Origin: an uncultured Clostridia bacterium
GTDB taxonomy: Bacteria > Bacillota > Clostridia > Oscillospirales > Ruminococcaceae
NCBI GenBank assembly: GCA_947627875.1
Contig: CANQXS010000004.1
Location: 1 to 64,000, forward strand
Direction: 5' to 3'
Length of the DNA: 64,000 bases
How positions within the stretch are numbered: the first letter of the stretch is position 1; every line of letters begins with the position of its first letter. Of the stretch, positions 11,636-38,177 are shown piece by piece. Below the pieces are notes generated by a model. The model ran no database searches and was not told the origin of the DNA. It worked only from the letters and a program-made list of their open reading frames with translations. Made by a program: the position numbers and the translations under genes.

Positions 11636-14600
11636 TCATATTCCGAACAGTTTCCTCAGCTCTTCTTCCATCGTTCCGCTCTTGGCAAATTCCAATGTAT
11701 CACACAAGCGGATATTATTCTTTTCAATGTATATCTCGTCGCTGAATCCTAGAATATAACGCAGGCAAATTCTATATATGATTTCCGTCGGAGCGCAGCC
11801 GTAGACCTGATTTGCAAAGATATGATTCAGTCTTTCGGCATTATCTGGATAAAGCGCTTTCAGACGGTCGCTCTGATAAAGTCTTGTTACGATCTCGGTT
11901 ATATACATTCCCGATTTCATATACAGGTCTGCAAACGTAGCATTCGGATCATCAAAGCAGCCCGGGTTCTCCTGCTCCAGCTTGTCCACCATGTCTTTCA
12001 CGACTTTTTTCGGTGTGAATATCTGGTTGGTTCGCTGCGGAGGAATATAATCAAAAATATCTCCGGTGTGATCGGGCTCAAAATAATCTGCAAGCTCTGC
12101 CCGCTTTCTCATAAACTCCTGCACGGCATCGTTAAACACCACTTCATCAAACAGATGACCGTCAAAGTGTTTCTTCTCGCCGCTGTCCGATACATAGTCC
12201 CCGCCGTCGCGCAGCATACGGAACTGATCAAGCGTCACGCCCTGCCCATTTTGAGGATTTACGGTTACTTCCCAGAAAACTTCTTCGGGTACAAGAGAAT
12301 CAAAGTTTTCAAGAGTGGTGTTTTCATCGCCGTATGCCATCAAAAACGCAGGAATAGTCCTTGAAAATCCGCGCAGATGGTCCCTGACGCTTCCCTCGAT
12401 GGAATCCTTCGCTGCATTTAACTTTTCGGTTTCTACCGTTTCCACGATGGATTCGGCGACCTTTTTAACCGTTTCGTCGCCACGGAGCTTTTTATGAATA
12501 TTATCCACCATATCGCGGTAGCCTTGAATGCGTCTTTCGTTATACATTTCATCGATCTCGGTTATTTCAGCCATTGTCGCGCCAGCCTGCTGTGCTTTCC
12601 GGATTTTGTCCTCTTGCTCCTTGATAAGCTGATGATCCCTAATGGTATAGTCGCCGAATTCACGGCTCACTATTGTGTCGGTAGCTTCCTGGATCTTGCG
12701 TTCCAACTGATTTTGCGTGGATTTCTTAAGGTCGTCTCCGTATTGCGATTTTGCGGTTTCCATAAGTGTATCCGCAATAGGCTTAGAAAACTGCTCTCGC
12801 AAGATTTTAAGTTCATCTTTTTTGGGATTCGGAGTCAACTCTGCATTATCCTGAATTTTCTTGACAGTTTCCGTAAGCTTTTCTTCCAGCTCTCCGTAAA
12901 TCCTATCGCCGAAAACATCGCCTGCGGTGCCGATGATTATTTCGCTCGGTATTTCAACCTCGCCGCTGCCATTCAAATGCAGGCTGTCAGCCGTGGTTTC
13001 ATCAACAGGTGCCGGTGCAAGAGGTTTCGGCTCTTCTATCGCCTGCATATTGTTTATGATTTCGATGATTTCTTTCGGCGCGCCGAAAATTCCGCTGATG
13101 TTTGCAAAGAGGAAATTGGACATAAATCCGCGTTCAACAACTTCTCTTGCGTGGATTCTCCGAGGGATCGTGAGGACTTTCTCGGCGTCAAGTTCTATCA
13201 TCGAGCCGTCTTCATCTTCGCCGTAGACCGGGAAGAAGTTCAGAAGCTCCCTGACGTTGCGCTTTCGGTCGTCAAAATCGCCCTTTTCACCCGAAGTTTC
13301 GGGAATCAGGTCGTTTGCAAACTGTTCAAAGATAGTGAGGGTGCGGGCAGGATCGAAGTCAAACACATAGGAATTCTGCTTTCTGTAGGTGTTTCCGTCG
13401 CTGTCGCGGAAGAGGCAGGGGTTCTGAGCGCGAAATGCCGCCTGCATATAAAGCGCAGGGCTCGCCATGTTGGAAAGCATTAAAACAGCCGTCCACTCGG
13501 GAATGGTCACGCCGGTGGTGAGCTGACCTACCGACAGCGTAATCGTTTTGTCATATTCCGAAATCGCCTTTGTTACCCTGTCAAACGACTTCTCGTTTTC
13601 ATCATCGTCGTCAAGTTTGCCGTCGCCGGCGGCAAGTATCACCTCGTAATCCTTGAATACGGGGTGAAGCTTCAGCTTTTTCGCCAAAGCCTTTGCGCTT
13701 GCAACACGGTTCAGGAGCCAGAATGTGTGCTTGAGCTCATCGCGCAGCTCGGACGTTGAAAACGGGAACTTCTCCTGACGGGTAAGGGCATCGAGGAACT
13801 TATCCACATCGCGGTCGTGGACAAATTTTCCCTGCTCGTTGGTGGCGAAGAATTCGTTCAAATCGAAGGCAAATTCCTCTATATCGTCGTCGGCAAGCTC
13901 AATTCCGTTTTTCACTCTGTCCCTGACGATGTCCGACATCTGATATGTAAACAGCGAAAGCCGAGGCAGATTCGCATAGGGGTTCTCCTGCTCGCTTGAG
14001 CTGTCCCAATCGCGCTTGCGCTTTTGCTCGTCGGCATAGGTCCAGTTATATATCGCGCTGTCGGGGAATTTATCGTTCGCAAGAGCCTTGAACGGCGTGC
14101 CCGAAAGATGAAGCGTCCACTTGCGGCGGATATGGTTAAACGCCGTGTCGGTTTTATAGGTGTCAACGCCCTCGTGGGCTTCGTCGACAATGAGTATATC
14201 CCATTCGATACCCTTGTCTGCGCTTAGTTCGGACAGCTTTTCATATCTTCCGCCGAAGTAAATCGAGCCCTTTAGATCCTGCAAGCTGACAAACTCAATA
14301 CAGCCTTTTACATCGTCGTCGACCATATCGACATACTCGTCGCGGGTATAGACGTATTTTTTATCCTTGATTCCGTCGACGGTGCTGACGAAGATATATC
14401 CCGACTGCGGACCGAAAAACGTTTCATAGTCGGAATACCAGGAATTCGCGATCGCGGGGCGGTTTGTGACTATAAGGATATTTTTCGCGCCGAGATGCAT
14501 ACACAGATCATAAGCCGAAAGGGTTTTGCCGAAGCGCGGCTTTGCGTTCCACAAAAATTCGGAGTTTTTGCGGGCGTTAAAATACTCCGCGGTCTTTTTT

Positions 14601-15013
14601 ACCGCCTCAGCCTGCTCATCGCGAAGATTATAGGGGATAGCCGTATCTAAATCATCAAACTCAACAACGCCGTGGTTCTGGGTGAAATCCAAAAAATCGC
14701 CGCGGGCCTTATTCGGCTCGATGAAAAACCATTCGGTGCCGCTCTCGCGGGTAACGCCGAGCTTTTTAAGGTATGCGTGAAAATCCTTATCGGTGAAGGT
14801 GCCGTAAGGCTCGGTCATAAAAGCCGCGCGCATTGCCCAATGGGTTTTATGGGCGACGCCGACGGTGTGGGTCTGTTCGTTGATACGGGTTTCGACGTCG
14901 CGCTCGGTGAAGCCGATTTTTGTCCAGCCGTTGTGGGCGGGCACGCCGGGAGTTGTGTAGGCATAGCACTGCGGGACTACCTTTGAGGAGGTTTTTATAT
15001 TCAGAGCTGCCAT
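11636..15013 (-). CDS. GIY-YIG/T5orf172-like nuclease domain + DEAD/DEAH helicase, with methyltransferase motif X/I-like C-terminus (R-M protein)
   Basis: CYAYTTPGVPAHNGWTKIGFTERDVETRINEQT; Walker A-like NAKPRFGKTLSAYD; DILIVDEAHEG; C-terminal QIFTPKKVVKDMVDKL...FADLYMKSGMYITEIVTRLY; likely ATG at 15013 overlaps the previous TAA (TAATG). Confidence 0.82.
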   Translation of the reverse strand: MAALNIKTSSKVVPQCYAYTTPGVPAHNGWTKIGFTERDVETRINEQTHTVGVAHKTHWAMRAAFMTEPYGTFTDKDFHAYLKKLGVTRESGTEWFFIEPNKARGDFLDFTQNHGVVEFDDLDTAIPYNLRDEQAEAVKKTAEYFNARKNSEFLWNAKPRFGKTLSAYDLCMHLGAKNILIVTNRPAIANSWYSDYETFFGPQSGYIFVSTVDGIKDKKYVYTRDEYVDMVDDDVKGCIEFVSLQDLKGSIYFGGRYEKLSELSADKGIEWDILIVDEAHEGVDTYKTDTAFNHIRRKWTLHLSGTPFKALANDKFPDSAIYNWTYADEQKRKRDWDSSSEQENPYANLPRLSLFTYQMSDIVRDRVKNGIELADDDIEEFAFDLNEFFATNEQGKFVHDRDVDKFLDALTRQEKFPFSTSELRDELKHTFWLLNRVASAKALAKKLKLHPVFKDYEVILAAGDGKLDDDDENEKSFDRVTKAISEYDKTITLSVGQLTTGVTIPEWTAVLMLSNMASPALYMQAAFRAQNPCLFRDSDGNTYRKQNSYVFDFDPARTLTIFEQFANDLIPETSGEKGDFDDRKRNVRELLNFFPVYGEDEDGSMIELDAEKVLTIPRRIHAREVVERGFMSNFLFANISGIFGAPKEIIEIINNMQAIEEPKPLAPAPVDETTADSLHLNGSGEVEIPSEIIIGTAGDVFGDRIYGELEEKLTETVKKIQDNAELTPNPKKDELKILREQFSKPIADTLMETAKSQYGDDLKKSTQNQLERKIQEATDTIVSREFGDYTIRDHQLIKEQEDKIRKAQQAGATMAEITEIDEMYNERRIQGYRDMVDNIHKKLRGDETVKKVAESIVETVETEKLNAAKDSIEGSVRDHLRGFSRTIPAFLMAYGDENTTLENFDSLVPEEVFWEVTVNPQNGQGVTLDQFRMLRDGGDYVSDSGEKKHFDGHLFDEVVFNDAVQEFMRKRAELADYFEPDHTGDIFDYIPPQRTNQIFTPKKVVKDMVDKLEQENPGCFDDPNATFADLYMKSGMYITEIVTRLYQSDRLKALYPDNAERLNHIFANQVYGCAPTEIIYRICLRYILGFSDEIYIEKNNIRLCDTLEFAKSGTMEEELRKLFGI

Positions 15014-16056
15014 TATGCCATCTCCTTTACATGGGTTTCGATAAAGTCGATCTCCTCGGGCGAAAGATCGTATTTGCGGTAGAGCTGTCTGTCGATTTCG
15101 GCGACGGATTTCGACCAGTCGATGTCGGAATTTTCGGTGAAGTCTTGGAGAGGGACGTATTTCCACCTATCCGGCGGATTATCCTGCGTAACTTTAAGCA
15201 CGCCCAACATAGTTCTTGCAAATTTTGTGCATATATACTTATAACAAGATTCAGCCTCGCACATATGCTCATATGAGCCAATGCTCATAAATGATTCTGT
15301 ATGCCCGATGACGGGCTGCCCGATGACGGGAGTTGTTAAAACTTCTCCTAAGGCACCAGAACCATTGGACTTAGGGACAAATATTTTGTATTTATATAAA
15401 TTTATAGGACTATTTACATAATCTTTTCTAATATATTTATAGCCTCTTTCCCCGCCGATTCTCCCGAAAATTTGGATATATTCATTTCCGTCGTCCGGTT
15501 TTTCGTCAAAAAATAGCTGCGGTAAGATTTCAAAAATATTCGTCGACATATCGTACAAATGTCCCTTGCTTACCATACTTGCAGCTTCAGGGTGTTCTTC
15601 GTGCATAGTGTTCGTGAGCCTATATGCAGTTCTCGAAAAGACAATGTCTGCAAACGATGAAAATGAATCGTTGTGCGTGACTTTATGCAAAATTGAATTT
15701 AATTCTTCAAATGCAGTGTATGTTTCAATAGCGCCGAAATCTTTATTTTCGTCGCGATATGTTATTGCTACGCCGCCTTTAATGTCGGTATTTGAGAATA
15801 CTTTTGAGCTGTCCTGTTCGTGAAAAAGTACCTTAAAATGTGGGTCTTCCAACATTTTTTGATTCCACGCTTTTGGGGTGCTTCCAGCATTGAACAAAAA
15901 ACGTGCAGGGTGAATAAGCTCAACGCGGTCGGCTAATTTATATGATTCTTCCATAAAAAGATTGTAAACCGGCGGTGCAAAAGATTTCTGGTCGCCGACG
16001 GTTTCGTCCTGATACGGCGGGTTCCCGATCACATAATCAAACAGTTTCTTTCCCAT
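15013..16056 (-). CDS. N6-adenine methyltransferase module (Eco57I-like) starting at motif IV
   Basis: MGKKLFDYVIGNPPYQDE: NPPY 11 residues from the N-terminus; TRD-like remainder. Confidence 0.82.
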   Translation of the reverse strand: MGKKLFDYVIGNPPYQDETVGDQKSFAPPVYNLFMEESYKLADRVELIHPARFLFNAGSTPKAWNQKMLEDPHFKVLFHEQDSSKVFSNTDIKGGVAITYRDENKDFGAIETYTAFEELNSILHKVTHNDSFSSFADIVFSRTAYRLTNTMHEEHPEAASMVSKGHLYDMSTNIFEILPQLFFDEKPDDGNEYIQIFGRIGGERGYKYIRKDYVNSPINLYKYKIFVPKSNGSGALGEVLTTPVIGQPVIGHTESFMSIGSYEHMCEAESCYKYICTKFARTMLGVLKVTQDNPPDRWKYVPLQDFTENSDIDWSKSVAEIDRQLYRKYDLSPEEIDFIETHVKEMA

Positions 16057-16059
16057 GGC

Positions 16060-16974
16060 TCAATTCTCCTTTATATCCAAAAATCTCAAAGAGCGCCGGC
16101 TTCGCCAGTCGAATACCATGCAGGGCAGGGCTTGCGCCTTAGGCTCATCTATATCAAATAGCGCCAGCTGCTCAAACTCTTCATAAGGCTTACCGAGCGG
16201 CGCGGTCCCTTTAAGCCCGTCCATCTGCCAAATGTTCCAGGCTATCCTGTTCGCAACCTGCCTGAGCAGCCTGTCCGCGGGTTTTTGGTTCCAACGCTCC
16301 TCGTAATAATCCGAAAACGTTAAAAGCAGGTTTATCCGCGCTATCAGAACGTTGTCGCCCTGATACTCGTAGCCGTATGTCGATTCAAAAGCCCGCAGCG
16401 ACCATTTCATCCAGTCGTCGAAGCTGTCGGCGTTTTCGTTCACGACCCGCAGCTTTCGGTCTAAAATTCCGATTCGCCGCACCATCGGAAATATCAGCTC
16501 TCCGGTCGAAACATCGTATCGCGAGACAAGGTAGGGAGCCTCGCCGCAGGTTATCTCAAGCCGCCGCGAATCGACGTATTGCTGCCAGCTTTTGCCCTCG
16601 GGGAATTCGATTTTTTCGGGGTTGACCTCCCAGCCGCCGCCCTTTTCGCGGTTGAAGACATTTTCCCGCCCGAACCAATCGCTGTCGCAGTAGTTGTTCA
16701 TCTTGTTGCAGAGCCACGCAGGGGTGAAAACCTCGGCTTTTTTGCGGGTGCGCTGCGCCTGCGCCTCATGCGATTTCTGTATTCGCGGGCAGATGAGGTC
16801 GGGGTGCCATAAAAGCGATCGGGCGCAGATTTCGGCGTCGTCCAAAAATTCGCTGCCGAAGTTTTCGTATGTATCCGTCGCCCAGATGATGTTCTTTTGG
16901 GTGGATTTGTCGGAAAGCAGCAGGTCGAGAAAGTTCAGTACGGGTCGGCTTCTGATGTCGATCAGCTTTTCCAC
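16060..16974 (-). CDS. Restriction endonuclease subunit M-like methylase
   Basis: AEVFTPAWLCNKMNNY (motif X-like), RRLEITCGEAPYLVSRYDVSTGE (motif I-like); GTG start at 16974 preceded by AAAGGAGG; ORF track extends to 17037. Confidence 0.72.
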   Translation of the reverse strand: MEKLIDIRSRPVLNFLDLLLSDKSTQKNIIWATDTYENFGSEFLDDAEICARSLLWHPDLICPRIQKSHEAQAQRTRKKAEVFTPAWLCNKMNNYCDSDWFGRENVFNREKGGGWEVNPEKIEFPEGKSWQQYVDSRRLEITCGEAPYLVSRYDVSTGELIFPMVRRIGILDRKLRVVNENADSFDDWMKWSLRAFESTYGYEYQGDNVLIARINLLLTFSDYYEERWNQKPADRLLRQVANRIAWNIWQMDGLKGTAPLGKPYEEFEQLALFDIDEPKAQALPCMVFDWRSRRSLRFLDIKEN

Positions 16975-17112
16975 GGAACGACGCCTCCTTTCGGGCAGTA
17001 TATTATTTATTATACTGCAATTCGGGCGCAAAAGCAACCCTCCCCCGTGAATTTTTGGGGTATGATGTGATTATAGCACATCATCTGTCCAAAAGTACGG
17101 ACTCCGAAATAT

Positions 17113-17171: not shown

Positions 17172-17200
17172 AACCGCGGGAAGCTTATCGCCTCCCGCGG
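17172..17200 (-). terminator. Terminator of the cohesin-like/CxxC gene
   Basis: ACCGCGGGA ... TCCCGCGGT stem with flanking A/T tracts, just 3' of the minus-strand stop. Confidence 0.65.
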
Positions 17201-17213
17201 TCGGGTTTTGAAA

Positions 17214-20009
17214 TTATCTCTTCTTTATTACGAGCGCTGCCGCCGCTAAAATCGCGGGGATCACGGACATCGCAAGACCAGTCTCGGGGTTGGTCTCGGC
17301 AGGAGCCGGAGCGGGCTCGGCTTCGGAAGGAGCTTCGGCAGGAGTATCGTCGATGTCGTCGGCGTTCATTTCGTCGCCTTCGCCTTCGCCGCCCTGCTCG
17401 GTCCCCTCAACGGGAGAGTCGATCTCAACGGTGTCGTCGGGCTTGGTCTCTACAAACCCGGGAAGCTTGTATCCGCAGAATCTGCATACGCCGCGCTCGT
17501 TAAAGACGTGAGCCTCGGTGTAAACAAGCCCGCATTCTCTCGTGCACATAAACGTGTGGGAGAATTCGTTAGACGAGATGACCGTAAGGGTATGCCCAAG
17601 ATCGCTGCAGTCGTCTTTATATTTTACGGTGAAGCTGTCGATGCTGTCGAATACTCCGGCTTTCTTGCCGTTGTTATCGAGGAAGTATTTGCCGCAGTCG
17701 GGGCAGTGCCAATAAGCCAGGCTGCCGTCGTGCTTGACGCCGTTGTCGTCCTTGTAGGGCTCTACTGCTGCGGTGAGGGTCGCCTTGGTATGCGCGTCGA
17801 ATTCAAGCTTTTCGTCGCAGCTTGTGCACTTATACCAGTGACCGCTCTCGTCCTGAGTCATATCGCCCTTGACGTGCTCCTCATGCTCGGTCTCGGTCTT
17901 GCATACGGTGCAGACCTGCCAGTGACCCTTAGCGTCGTGTTCATATTCGCCCGCGGTATATGTATGGGCGGTGACGTTGATTATGTGGTCTTCGGCGTCG
18001 CAGTTCTCGTTCTCGCAGATCTGCCAGTGGTTGGTAGCGTCAGACTTATATCCGGCGGCGGGCTTGTGTCCGGTCGCCTTTACGGCTTCGGTCTTGGTAG
18101 CGCCCTCCTGACCGCAGTTCCTCTTGCAGGTATAGGTCTTTACGCCGTCCTTTAAGCAGGTTGCGGGAGTGGTGATCTTGCCGTCGTCGTAATCATGTCC
18201 GAGAGCCTTGATGGCTTCGGTCTTAGTATCTCCGCAGAGGGTGCAGGTATAGGTCTTTACGCCGTCCACCATACAGGTGGCTTCCTTGGTAACTACTCCG
18301 TCGTTCCACTTATGAGCGGTCTTGTCGAGCTCGCCGTAGGCGGTTCCGCATACGCTGCACTTCGCCTGCTCGGTGCAGTTGGCGGTGCCGCCCTTGTGGG
18401 CTTCAACGCCGACTTTTGCTTCGCAGTATTTGCAGACGTGCCAGTGGTTTGTTCCGTCGCTTTCCCATGCCGTTTCGTCAACGCCGTCGGTGTGGTTCGT
18501 CTTGTCGAGTTCGCCGTATTCGGCGCCGCAGTCGGCGCATTTTGCCTTTTCGGTGCATGTTGCCTCTCCGCCGCTATGCTTTGCAACGGTTTTGTCTATC
18601 TTTGCGCCGCACACGGTGCAAATGTGCCAGTGCTCAGCCGAACCCGCTTCGGTGTGCCATACGGTGTCTTCAATATGAGGAGTCACATCGAGTTCTACGG
18701 TGCAGCCTTCAACTTTGCAGGCGTGATAGTGATACTCGCCGTTGCTGAGCCACTTAGACTCGTCGGCGATGTGCTCGTGAAGCGGTGCCTCGCAGACATC
18801 GCAGGTGCCGTCGGAATTCTTATCGACGTGATCCTCGGTGCCTACAGGAGCTTTACATACGGAGCATATGTGATAGTGACCGTCGGCGGCGGATTTGCCA
18901 TAGTGCCAATCGCTGTCGGGCGTGTGAGCTTCTTTATTGCCGATGACGGCGTTGCAGTTCACGCAGTAGTGCCAATGGCTCTCGCCGTCGGATTTATAAT
19001 CCTCAGACTCAACGTGCGGCGCCTTGTCGGTGGTGCGCTCTTCGGTCTCGCCGCAGACGCTGCATTTATACTGAGCCTTGCCTTCCTTGGTGCAGGTGGC
19101 TTCCTCAATCGTTTTTTCAAACTCCCACTTATGGGCGGTCTTGTCAAGCTCGCCGTAGGGGGTTCCGCATACACTGCACTTTGCCTTTTCGGCGCAGGTA
19201 GCGGTTCCGCCCTTGTGGTTTTCCTTATCTTTGGTAACGGTTCCGCATTCGCTGCACTCTTCCCAGTGCTGATTTTCGTCGTACTTGAGGACCGGCGTAT
19301 GTTCGGCAGCGGGCACTACATAGTCGCAGCCGGTGCATTTGCCGGCGATACAAGGATGCTCGCTGCTGTTCACATGTTCGGTCTTCGCTTCCTTATGACC
19401 GCACCTCTTGCACTCTTTCCAGTGACCGTCGGCGTCAGACTTCAGTTCGGGGTCGTGGGTCTCGCAGGTGAGCTCGATCTTGCCGTCTTCGGGGTCGGGG
19501 TTGACGTCAAAATCGGTGCCGCCGGTAAGGGATTTGCCGTTTTCGTCGCTGATATCGTTTTTGGTGAAGCTGAACGTAAGGTCGGAATCGGGAGTTATCT
19601 TGGTCTCGTCAACCGTGAAAGTAATGGTTGCAATCGTCCCGGAGAGTTTGACGGGCGGAATCGAAAGATCATTAGGAACTGCCCCAAAAATAAGGATCAC
19701 CGTACTGTCGGTAAAGTTTTTCGCTTTGCTTCCTAAATAATCATTGTCCATGTCAGCGGATGCAATTTCCCCGCTCCAAACTATATCGTTGCGCGTAGTC
19801 GATAAGCCCTCGGGGCATTTGATATTAAGGTCAATGCCGTTGACCGCAACGCTTCCGTCTATAACTACCCGCGCGGTAAGCGTGCCGGAGCCGAAGGTAT
19901 AGGGATCAGCCTCAATCTTGAGGCTGAACGAACCGGCGGCAGAGACCGAAACCGTCAGGCAGCATACAGCGGCGGCAAGCGCCAGTATAATTGCCAAAAT
20001 CTTCTTCAT
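17214..20009 (-). CDS. Secreted, surface-anchored protein: cohesin-like N-terminal domain + CxxC/His repeat array + PETG-type C-terminal anchor
   Basis: Signal peptide MKKILAIILALAAAVCCLTVSVSAAG; beta-rich cohesin-like segment; repeated HWxxCxxCG units; C-terminus NPETGLAMSVIPAILAAAALVIKKR. Confidence 0.75.
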   Translation of the reverse strand: MKKILAIILALAAAVCCLTVSVSAAGSFSLKIEADPYTFGSGTLTARVVIDGSVAVNGIDLNIKCPEGLSTTRNDIVWSGEIASADMDNDYLGSKAKNFTDSTVILIFGAVPNDLSIPPVKLSGTIATITFTVDETKITPDSDLTFSFTKNDISDENGKSLTGGTDFDVNPDPEDGKIELTCETHDPELKSDADGHWKECKRCGHKEAKTEHVNSSEHPCIAGKCTGCDYVVPAAEHTPVLKYDENQHWEECSECGTVTKDKENHKGGTATCAEKAKCSVCGTPYGELDKTAHKWEFEKTIEEATCTKEGKAQYKCSVCGETEERTTDKAPHVESEDYKSDGESHWHYCVNCNAVIGNKEAHTPDSDWHYGKSAADGHYHICSVCKAPVGTEDHVDKNSDGTCDVCEAPLHEHIADESKWLSNGEYHYHACKVEGCTVELDVTPHIEDTVWHTEAGSAEHWHICTVCGAKIDKTVAKHSGGEATCTEKAKCADCGAEYGELDKTNHTDGVDETAWESDGTNHWHVCKYCEAKVGVEAHKGGTANCTEQAKCSVCGTAYGELDKTAHKWNDGVVTKEATCMVDGVKTYTCTLCGDTKTEAIKALGHDYDDGKITTPATCLKDGVKTYTCKRNCGQEGATKTEAVKATGHKPAAGYKSDATNHWQICENENCDAEDHIINVTAHTYTAGEYEHDAKGHWQVCTVCKTETEHEEHVKGDMTQDESGHWYKCTSCDEKLEFDAHTKATLTAAVEPYKDDNGVKHDGSLAYWHCPDCGKYFLDNNGKKAGVFDSIDSFTVKYKDDCSDLGHTLTVISSNEFSHTFMCTRECGLVYTEAHVFNERGVCRFCGYKLPGFVETKPDDTVEIDSPVEGTEQGGEGEGDEMNADDIDDTPAEAPSEAEPAPAPAETNPETGLAMSVIPAILAAAALVIKKR
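17460..19470 (-). repeat. Coding CxxC/His repeat region
   Basis: At least ten H(W/Y)xxCxxC units interleaved with TCxEKAKCSVCGTxYGELDKTAHKW and EATCxxDGVKTYTCTLCGDTKTEAIKALGH units. Confidence 0.85.
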
Positions 20010-20051
20010 TTAATGTTCCTCCTTAGTTTATATGAAATACCTTTGGTATTG

Positions 20052-21431
20052 TCAGCTGAGGTGTGCAAGCGCGCGGAGAATCGCAACCGCGTCTGAAAGA
20101 TCGATGACTTCATCATCATTGAAGTAAGCGGCTTTCTCAACGAATGTCTCTCCGACATCGAGCTTTGCAAGATATCTGAGTATTGCAACGGCATCGCCGA
20201 GCTCGACTTCCCCGTTGCCGTTTACGTCGCCCTTCAATACGGCAGTGCCGGAGCTCTCCTTCATTTCGCCGCATTTAGTGCATCTGCCGCTGGGATCATA
20301 ATCGTGGACGGCGTCGGGGTTTGAAGTGTCGAAATCGGTATCTGAAACTTTATATGTGTTGAGCCATTCCTTAACGTCATCATATGCAGTGTGGTCTTTA
20401 TCGAAGTTTGTGCTGCCCTTGAGGAAGTATGCGGTGTATCCTCTGCCGCCCTCATAATAGTTTGAATCCCAAGTGCAGTCTACATTATAATATTTGTCGC
20501 ATATCTTAACGATGTTCCAAGCGTGGGCTTCGCCCTGCACCGTTTGACCGGGTTCCGCTTTGTTTCCGAAGCCGAAGCCGGTGACGACGCGGCAGTCGAT
20601 TCCGAGTTTGAGCATCATCTTATAGAACAGCGTTGCGTAGCCCTGGCAGACAGAAGTGCCGTTGATCATTGCGGCGTAGGCAGTCTGCTTAAGGGGATAT
20701 GTATCGTCGGTGAGGTGCTCGTCGTCGTAGGTGACGTGGGTAGCGATCCAGTCGTGAACGGCCTTTACTTTTTCGTAGTTTGTCTTGCCGTCGAGTTCGA
20801 GCGAGGTTATGACCTCGTCGATTTTCCGGTTGAGCTCGTCCTCCTGCTCGCGGGTGGTGTAATAGTTGACGGTGAAGTCAAGTATCAGCTTTTGCATACC
20901 GTTAAATTTTGAATAATCTTCCGGGTTTGCCGGCATAGGACCGTAGCTCCACTTTATCGTGCCTCCGCCGGGAAGGAAAACTCCGGCAGTCAGGCTCAAT
21001 TCGAGATAGTCGCCGCCCTCGGGATCGGTGCCGTGCTCATAAGCCTTCGCCTGGAGCTTCGCGACGATGTCCGCTACGACCTGCTTCAGCTCTTCCTTGC
21101 TGTTGACGTTTGTAGCATCGTACGCGTCAGCCCACTCAAAGGAAAAATTGGTCATGCGGGCAATCATGCACTCCCGCATATATGCCGCAGCTGCGTCAAA
21201 GCTTGTAACGGTAATGTCGGGTTCATAATATGAAAGCGGCATTATTTCGGACTCTAAGCTTCCGAAGGTTACGCCGCCGTTCTGCGAAACATTGATCCAC
21301 CCGCTGCCGTAAACGGTTTCGGCGGGAACGAAATCGGCAACCTCGCCCTCCGCAAAAGCCGCAAAAGGCATATTGAGGCAGAGAAGCGCGCTGAGCAAAA
21401 TCGGGATAATTCTCTTAAGATACATTTTCAT
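20052..21431 (-). CDS. Secreted transglutaminase-like protein with C-terminal dockerin
   Basis: GTSVCQGYATLFYKMMLKLGIDCRVV ... GEAHAWNIVKICDKYYNVDCTWDS (Cys-His-Asp); C-terminal GDVNGNGEVELGDAVAILRYLAKL and NDDEVIDLSDAVAILRALAHL. Confidence 0.88.
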   Translation of the reverse strand: MKMYLKRIIPILLSALLCLNMPFAAFAEGEVADFVPAETVYGSGWINVSQNGGVTFGSLESEIMPLSYYEPDITVTSFDAAAAYMRECMIARMTNFSFEWADAYDATNVNSKEELKQVVADIVAKLQAKAYEHGTDPEGGDYLELSLTAGVFLPGGGTIKWSYGPMPANPEDYSKFNGMQKLILDFTVNYYTTREQEDELNRKIDEVITSLELDGKTNYEKVKAVHDWIATHVTYDDEHLTDDTYPLKQTAYAAMINGTSVCQGYATLFYKMMLKLGIDCRVVTGFGFGNKAEPGQTVQGEAHAWNIVKICDKYYNVDCTWDSNYYEGGRGYTAYFLKGSTNFDKDHTAYDDVKEWLNTYKVSDTDFDTSNPDAVHDYDPSGRCTKCGEMKESSGTAVLKGDVNGNGEVELGDAVAILRYLAKLDVGETFVEKAAYFNDDEVIDLSDAVAILRALAHLS

Positions 21432-21534
21432 TACATTTTCCTCCGTGCGTATTTATACATTCGGATTATATCATAGACGCGGGAAATATGCAAGCTTTTT
21501 TAAAAAAATTGTTTGTAAAAAAACGGGAATGTCG

Positions 21535-36976: not shown

Positions 36977-38101
36977 TCAGAAAATATAGCGGACGAAATT
37001 GTAGAAGCCGCTGTTCACGGCATTGGCGTCGTGGTCTGCTCCGGGAACGTCGTAGCAGATATGCTTTACGCCGTTGCTGGTCATAATCTCGTCATATTTC
37101 TTATAGGTATCGCCGACGGTATGGTCGTTCGTTCCTCCGCATATCATAAGCAGTTTCGGGCTGTATTCCTTTCCCTCGAACGTGAGCTCGTTCTCAGAGA
37201 GCTGACCTTTATGCTCCATAGCCCAGTCCCTCATCGGGGTAAGCCCGGGAGCGGGAGCAAAGGCTCCGCAATAAGCAAACAGGTCGGGGCGCTCAAAGCC
37301 GATGAACAGCGCCTCTCTGCCGCCCATCGAGAAGCCGGCTATGGCGGTGTTTTCCCTGCCGGCGAGAACGGAATAATGCGTCTCGATATACGGCATCAGG
37401 CTGCCCGTGAGGTCGTAAATGAAATCATCATAGGGCAGCACGGCTTCGGGAGTAAACGCAGGCTGCATATTCGGGTCACCGGTCGCGTACATATTCGGGA
37501 ATACGATTATCATATCCTTCGCGAGACCGTCAATCGCGAGGTTGGTGCAGATCTGAACAAGCCTGTAGGCGGGGTCGTTGAGAAACGTTCCTTCGTCGCA
37601 GAATATGCCGTGGAGCATATAAATGACAGGGTATTTTTTAGTGGGGTCGTAATTCGCGGGGAGGACAACGTTTGCCCATCTGTCGCACTTGGTGAATTCG
37701 GAATAGTATTTTATATGCTCGGCTCTGGGATATGTAACGCCGGAGCGGTTATCGGAAGCCGAAGTCGGGCAGAACTGCTCTATCTCCACGGTATCCATAA
37801 GCTCCTGCTTCGGCGGGTCTAACTTAGCCAAAACGCGGAGTATCGCTACCGCGTCGGAGAGATCAACTTTATGGTTGCCGTCGTAATCTGCTGCGGACTC
37901 GTCAAAATCGCCTGTGCTCAAATGAGCGAGGTTACGAAGAATTGCCACAGCATCGGGGAGATCAAGCTCTCCGCTGCCGTTGACATCTCCCAAAACAGCG
38001 GCGCGTGCCGACTGCGCATAGCTTCCGAAAGCAGAAACGGGAGCCGAGAGGCAGCCGCAAAGAAGTATCGCCGATAGCAGCACCGATATGAATTTTTTCA
38101 T
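36977..38101 (-). CDS. Secreted alpha/beta-hydrolase esterase (feruloyl/acetyl-xylan esterase-like) with N-terminal dockerin
   Basis: Signal peptide MKKFISVLLSAILLCGCLSAPVSAFG; dockerin GDVNGSGELDLPDAVAILRNLAHL / DGNHKVDLSDAVAILRVLAKL; esterase YPVIYMLHGIF...IAGFSMGGREALFIG; ORF track start 38122. Confidence 0.9.
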   Translation of the reverse strand: MKKFISVLLSAILLCGCLSAPVSAFGSYAQSARAAVLGDVNGSGELDLPDAVAILRNLAHLSTGDFDESAADYDGNHKVDLSDAVAILRVLAKLDPPKQELMDTVEIEQFCPTSASDNRSGVTYPRAEHIKYYSEFTKCDRWANVVLPANYDPTKKYPVIYMLHGIFCDEGTFLNDPAYRLVQICTNLAIDGLAKDMIIVFPNMYATGDPNMQPAFTPEAVLPYDDFIYDLTGSLMPYIETHYSVLAGRENTAIAGFSMGGREALFIGFERPDLFAYCGAFAPAPGLTPMRDWAMEHKGQLSENELTFEGKEYSPKLLMICGGTNDHTVGDTYKKYDEIMTSNGVKHICYDVPGADHDANAVNSGFYNFVRYIF

Positions 38102-38177
38102 TGAAAAACGCTTCCTTTCCAAGTATTACACTAATTATAACAGCACTGCGGGCAAAAATCAACCTTTAGGCAAAAAT

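Follow-up and report, generated by a model that had tools for sequence, protein, structure and literature searches.

Does a secreted, dockerin-bearing enzyme dock on the wall-anchored protein encoded by the next gene? The question is raised by two genes on the minus strand of the window, the 64,000-nucleotide stretch of DNA from an uncultured gut Clostridia bacterium that was analysed here. One gene (17214–20009) encodes a 931-aa protein and the other (20052–21431) a 459-aa protein, both with signal peptides. The first-pass annotation had placed the pair at 17214–21431, which the ORFs confirm, and had proposed that a cohesin-like surface protein and a dockerin-bearing transglutaminase-like enzyme form a simple surface-display pair. 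Gene content, domains, operon-like layout and a partial conservation of adjacency are observed directly.

In the 42-bp gap between the two genes there is a ribosome-binding site but nothing terminator-like. A promoter-like site read from the sequence (TTGCAT-N17-TATAAT; 21465–21493, minus strand) lies upstream of the transglutaminase gene, and a terminator-like hairpin of 13 pairs with a T-rich tail (17172–17202, minus strand) lies directly 3' of the anchor gene. The promoter-like site, at 21493–21465, is absent from the output of a consensus scan that demands at least four of six matches to TTGACA. Together, the short gap, the single upstream promoter-like site and the single downstream terminator-like site suggest that the two genes form an operon. 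At locus L009 of the related genome G549, this promoter-like element immediately precedes the anchor ortholog, and no transglutaminase gene separates them; the enzyme gene of the window thus has an inherited promoter on one side and the anchor gene on the other. Positions 11636–17037 of the window hold an Eco57I-like methylase ORF and neighbouring ORFs of 325 and 1176 aa, the latter overlapping in another frame; this layout is repeated in the near-identical locus L008 and is probably a split restriction-modification system.

The 459-aa protein contains a transglutaminase core at aa 215–318 (20478–20789, minus strand; PF01841, E 8e-18), in which the Cys-His-Asp triad of this family is intact by alignment (C262, H303 and D318). 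At its C-terminus lies a two-repeat, type I-like dockerin at aa 400–455 (20067–20234, minus strand), matched by PF00404 and by the PDB dockerin 2y3n_B (E 0.003). The PF00404 score is 21.4 bits in a whole-protein hmmscan, just below the 22.9 cut-off, and 25.9 bits, above it, in the genome scan. The domain shows the type I dockerin signature, a pair of loop-helix repeats in which positions 1, 3, 5, 9 and 12 hold calcium ligands; the loop table gives canonical ligands for loop 1 and a Tyr at position 1 of loop 2. The upstream neighbour of the anchor gene is thus what it was first said to be, a transglutaminase-like enzyme ending in a two-repeat dockerin. Loss of the second-loop Asp was considered as a mark of transglutaminase dockerins and rejected, as Asn occupies that place in other dockerins of the related genome G473 as well.

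The 931-aa protein is organized, on the minus strand, as a cohesin-like N-terminal domain (aa 26–181; 19467–19934), a region of CxxC/His repeats that is a probable stalk (17445–19466), and a C-terminal cell-wall sorting signal composed of NPETG, a hydrophobic stretch and KKR (17217–17291). This signal and three sortase matches above cut-off in the genome fit the wall/membrane anchor ascribed to the end of the protein; the orthologs carry NPKTG instead. The repeat region accounts for approximately three quarters of the protein, and the 17 CxxC motifs in the protein had gone unmentioned in the first-pass annotation. Searches of the whole protein against NCBIfam and PDB sequences gave no match, and a model of the CxxC unit (pLDDT 79, pTM 0.47) gave no fold match. 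A rubredoxin or zinc-finger identity of this unit was rejected, the matches being local ones to CxxC. The unit has a weak profile match (E 0.003) to residues 1075–1136, in the C-terminal part of the solved IgA protease 9qa6, and modules like it precede a cohesin-dockerin pair at another locus (L007), suggesting a shared surface-protein stalk. A further locus (L010), read through its repeats, has CxxC repeats and no cohesin-like start that could be seen.

That the anchor protein starts with a cohesin-like domain, as first proposed, holds as a remote relationship and fails as a Pfam assignment. The window protein has no Pfam match at E 1 and the isolated N-domain no Pfam cohesin match at E 10; the HMM search suggested as a check returned no PF00963 match, and since the curated cut-off of 24.1 bits is not reached, the domain is not filed as a Pfam cohesin. 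Its profile found nothing meaningful in NCBIfam or among PDB sequences. PF00963 does match the G549 ortholog, at 16.6 bits against the cut-off of 24.1. Alignment by hhalign of a profile of four anchor orthologs with six cohesins (Pfam-recognised, or counterparts of such) gave E 7.3e-6 and a probability of 84%, and a rerun scored the real profile at 35.8 and the best among 150 column-shuffled profiles at 17.9; alignment with the three short cohesins of its own genus alone was not significant. In a Foldseek search of the PDB, an AlphaFold2 model of the domain, of modest confidence (pLDDT 63, pTM 0.60), matched chains K (rank 1, probability 1.00, E 1.6e-3) and I (rank 3, probability 1.00, E 9.4e-3) of 4fl4, a Clostridium thermocellum scaffoldin (cohesin) complex. 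None of the Foldseek matches fell below E 0.001, and the weaker ones include many other β-sandwiches. We regard it as quite probable that the N-domain is a divergent cohesin-fold module. It is a putative dockerin binder and a candidate for a cohesin family missed by domain databases, with a natural enzyme/anchor gene pair. Matches of the N-domain profile at L043, L046 and L093 were set aside as unrelated-looking surface proteins, and an Ig-repeat surface protein of another genus (L092) seems to begin with a cohesin-like domain.

A genome-wide count of cohesins and dockerins, also suggested at the outset, places the pair in context. The only cohesin above cut-off in the window genome (G000), counted besides the window anchor, belongs to a short anchor of 343 aa (G000:C22, L001), which has this single cohesin and a Thr-rich linker. 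Five dockerin matches were found: the transglutaminase, an esterase, a GH30 protein, one that is frame-broken and one weak internal match in an S8-like protein. The esterase, the second dockerin protein of the window (36977–38122, minus strand; PF00756 with an N-terminal Dockerin_1 domain at 37820–37996), might be another client of this surface system. At G000:C7:37672 (L061), a 490-aa frame has stop codons behind a first repeat that resembles a dockerin; it may encode a broken dockerin protein or one with a single repeat. A six-frame search found no multi-cohesin scaffoldin in the window genome, although it starts with a loose first look that very divergent cohesins may escape. The label of classical cellulosome, defined by a scaffoldin with several cohesins, was rejected on this ground, as no multi-cohesin protein was found and the sole above-cut-off cohesin sits in a single-cohesin protein; this agrees with the original placement of the pair outside a classical cellulosome.

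Similar inventories were obtained for the relatives. G473 has 19 dockerin matches (L050–L077) and one above-cut-off cohesin, in a single-cohesin anchor, plus the long anchor ortholog, and no scaffoldin was seen; the dockerin proteins examined there mostly have leucine-rich, Ig-like or InlB-like repeats, CAP or transglutaminase domains. G000 and G473 both have the canonical single-cohesin anchor; the counterpart in G549 falls slightly short of the cut-off. The two-repeat dockerins of any one genome follow a common consensus, which is roughly DGVxMQR in G473 and DAVxILR in both G000 and G549. Because of this shared consensus, the enzyme dockerin is not assignable to either anchor by sequence, and the canonical short cohesin could serve it just as well.

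Among the genomes of the same genus, convincing anchor orthologs occur only in G000, G549 and G473, indicating a rare family. The G473 ortholog (552 aa, with an N-domain 29% identical to that of the window) is preceded by two tandem transglutaminase-dockerin genes, in the order TG1, TG2, anchor. The triad is intact in TG1; in TG2 (L088:10198–11457), the alignment shows the catalytic Cys replaced by Ser and the His by Arg while the dockerin is retained, so that TG2 is a probable pseudoenzyme beside an intact copy. By a rough estimate, if dockerin genes were randomly scattered, the chance that any given gene has one immediately beside it would be approximately 0.4% for the window genome and 1.7% for G473. 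G549, a rabbit-gut MAG (Lapin-033 bin32; also G150), has the anchor gene with no transglutaminase-dockerin neighbour, and none of its three dockerin proteins (GH43-like, GH30-like and esterase by inspection) is a transglutaminase. Judged by anchor identity, G473 looks like a more distant relative than G549; since the corresponding place in G473 holds enzyme genes, it is simpler to assume that G549 lost the enzyme. An exclusive pairing of enzyme and anchor was rejected, since G549 retains the anchor alone.

The most unusual feature of the locus is an apparent replacement inside the anchor gene, seen on comparison with L008. The two loci share 97.4% identity over the flanking 6 kb and 100% in the first CxxC repeats, whereas codons 51–125 of the anchor genes (17214–20009 in the window, 37–3024 in L008) are only 40–62% identical in DNA and 25–50% in protein. 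Over these codons the window is closer to the more distant L009 than to L008. The L008 protein has one extra CxxC repeat unit (995 versus 931 aa). From these identities, it looks as if the core of the cohesin-like domain in L008 was replaced by recombination rather than altered by slow drift, which provides a case of a putative receptor domain that differs sharply between otherwise near-identical loci. Only 36 bp precede the anchor gene on the L008 contig, and these are identical to the window sequence. The record assigns the contig to an “uncultured Alistipes” MAG, yet the genes on it match the Clostridia genome of the window, and it is probably mis-binned.

These observations have led us to propose, with confidence barely above even, that the two genes form an operon for surface display by a small, monovalent cohesin-dockerin system. 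After export, the 931-aa protein would be linked by sortase to the wall at its NPETG motif and would display a single divergent cohesin on the end of its long stalk of CxxC repeats, and the secreted transglutaminase-like cysteine enzyme would be held at the surface through its dockerin. The socket for this dockerin could be the long-stalk cohesin, the canonical short cohesin anchor or both, and the esterase and GH30 dockerin proteins would dock on the same sockets. Cohesin function, binding, wall attachment and enzyme activity within this system are what we infer. Docking of the enzyme on the anchor is plausible given that a related species keeps the pair. Of the surface-display pair first envisaged, the operon-like layout and the adjacency kept in G473 lend support, while exclusivity is not supported in view of the G549 anchor without the enzyme and of the shared dockerin consensus.

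One point against the display model is the domain core itself, as 25–50% identity between near-identical loci is odd for the receptor of a conserved dockerin. This replacement fits a different reading, which we hold to be possible though doubtful: the domain has a cohesin-type fold but serves as a variable adhesin or ligand-binding tip, the enzyme docks on the short anchor G000:C22, and the two genes are neighbours merely as co-expressed surface-protein genes. The canonical single-cohesin anchors of G000 and G473 with the near-cut-off counterpart in G549, the one consensus common to all two-repeat dockerins of a genome, the enzyme-free anchor in G549 and the Ig-repeat protein of L092 with its apparent cohesin-like start all speak for this reading. 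Against it stands that the anchor adjoins transglutaminase-dockerin genes in two divergent species, with two in tandem upstream in G473. A generic resemblance, in which the N-domain would be some other β-sandwich, Ig-like or carbohydrate-binding, agrees with the missing Pfam match, the pLDDT of 63 and the many β-sandwiches among the weaker Foldseek matches; it is distinctly unlikely, as the ordered cohesin alignment spans most strands and scores far above the shuffles, the best structural matches are chains of a cohesin complex, and the Pfam cohesin model independently matches the G549 ortholog, albeit below cut-off. Finally, the anchor protein might be the substrate of the enzyme, its stalk being cross-linked or cleaved, rather than its dock. 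The operon-like layout and the triads intact in the window enzyme and G473 TG1 are compatible with such a role, but TG2 has lost its catalytic Cys and His and yet keeps its dockerin, and the anchor persists without the enzyme in G549, making this highly improbable.

If the display model is correct, it suggests that cohesin-dockerin plugs are a general surface-display device in gut Clostridia, with single-cohesin anchors instead of scaffoldins. The suggested cargo is the transglutaminase-like enzyme in the window and, in G473, leucine-rich-repeat, CAP and further transglutaminase-like proteins. A speculative and rather unlikely extension is that the cohesin-like tip is an exchangeable receptor, its core being swapped between strains by homologous recombination so that one wall stalk could serve different partners, and that the Cys/His-less transglutaminase copy of G473 persists as a docked, non-catalytic surface module.

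Several known systems resemble parts of this arrangement. The short anchor G000:C22 and its counterparts in G473 and G549 likewise have a single N-terminal cohesin, a linker and a C-terminal anchor; they differ in being recognised, or nearly so, by PF00963, in their Thr-rich linker, in the absence of NPxTG and in their location elsewhere in the genome. The Limousia mucinolysome also joins cohesins and dockerins at the surface of a gut organism and includes peptidases with dockerins and a cohesin protein anchored by sortase, but it uses multi-cohesin scaffoldins and many dockerin CAZymes, whereas no multi-cohesin protein was found in the window genome (PMC12997984). In Ruminococcus flavefaciens FD-1, the transglutaminase-like-Doc genes ORF01263–01267 form a probable operon and carry group-4b dockerins; they share with the window the tandem arrangement of genes for secreted transglutaminase-like proteins with C-terminal dockerins, but the description of that operon mentions no anchor gene with a cohesin, and the operon is part of a complex cellulosome that has 222 dockerin proteins or more (PMC2930009). 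Group-4 dockerins of this species bind the single-cohesin wall anchor ScaE (PMC5301203), which accepts dockerins from proteins not active on carbohydrates, a peptidase-Doc for example, and combines one cohesin with a sortase-type sorting signal (PMC2930009, PMC5301203), as the window anchor would with its putative cohesin. Of the ScaE-type features, the NPETG motif and genome sortases are present here and the cohesin part is recognised by remote homology alone; the window anchor differs from ScaE in its NPETG motif, its cohesin below Pfam detection, its CxxC-repeat stalk and a gene co-linear with that of a putative client. Pairings similar to that of the window are already known from rumen bacteria, and the closest working parallel would be ScaE of R. 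flavefaciens with its docked transglutaminase-like and peptidase-like proteins (PMC2930009, PMC5301203, PMC3573020).
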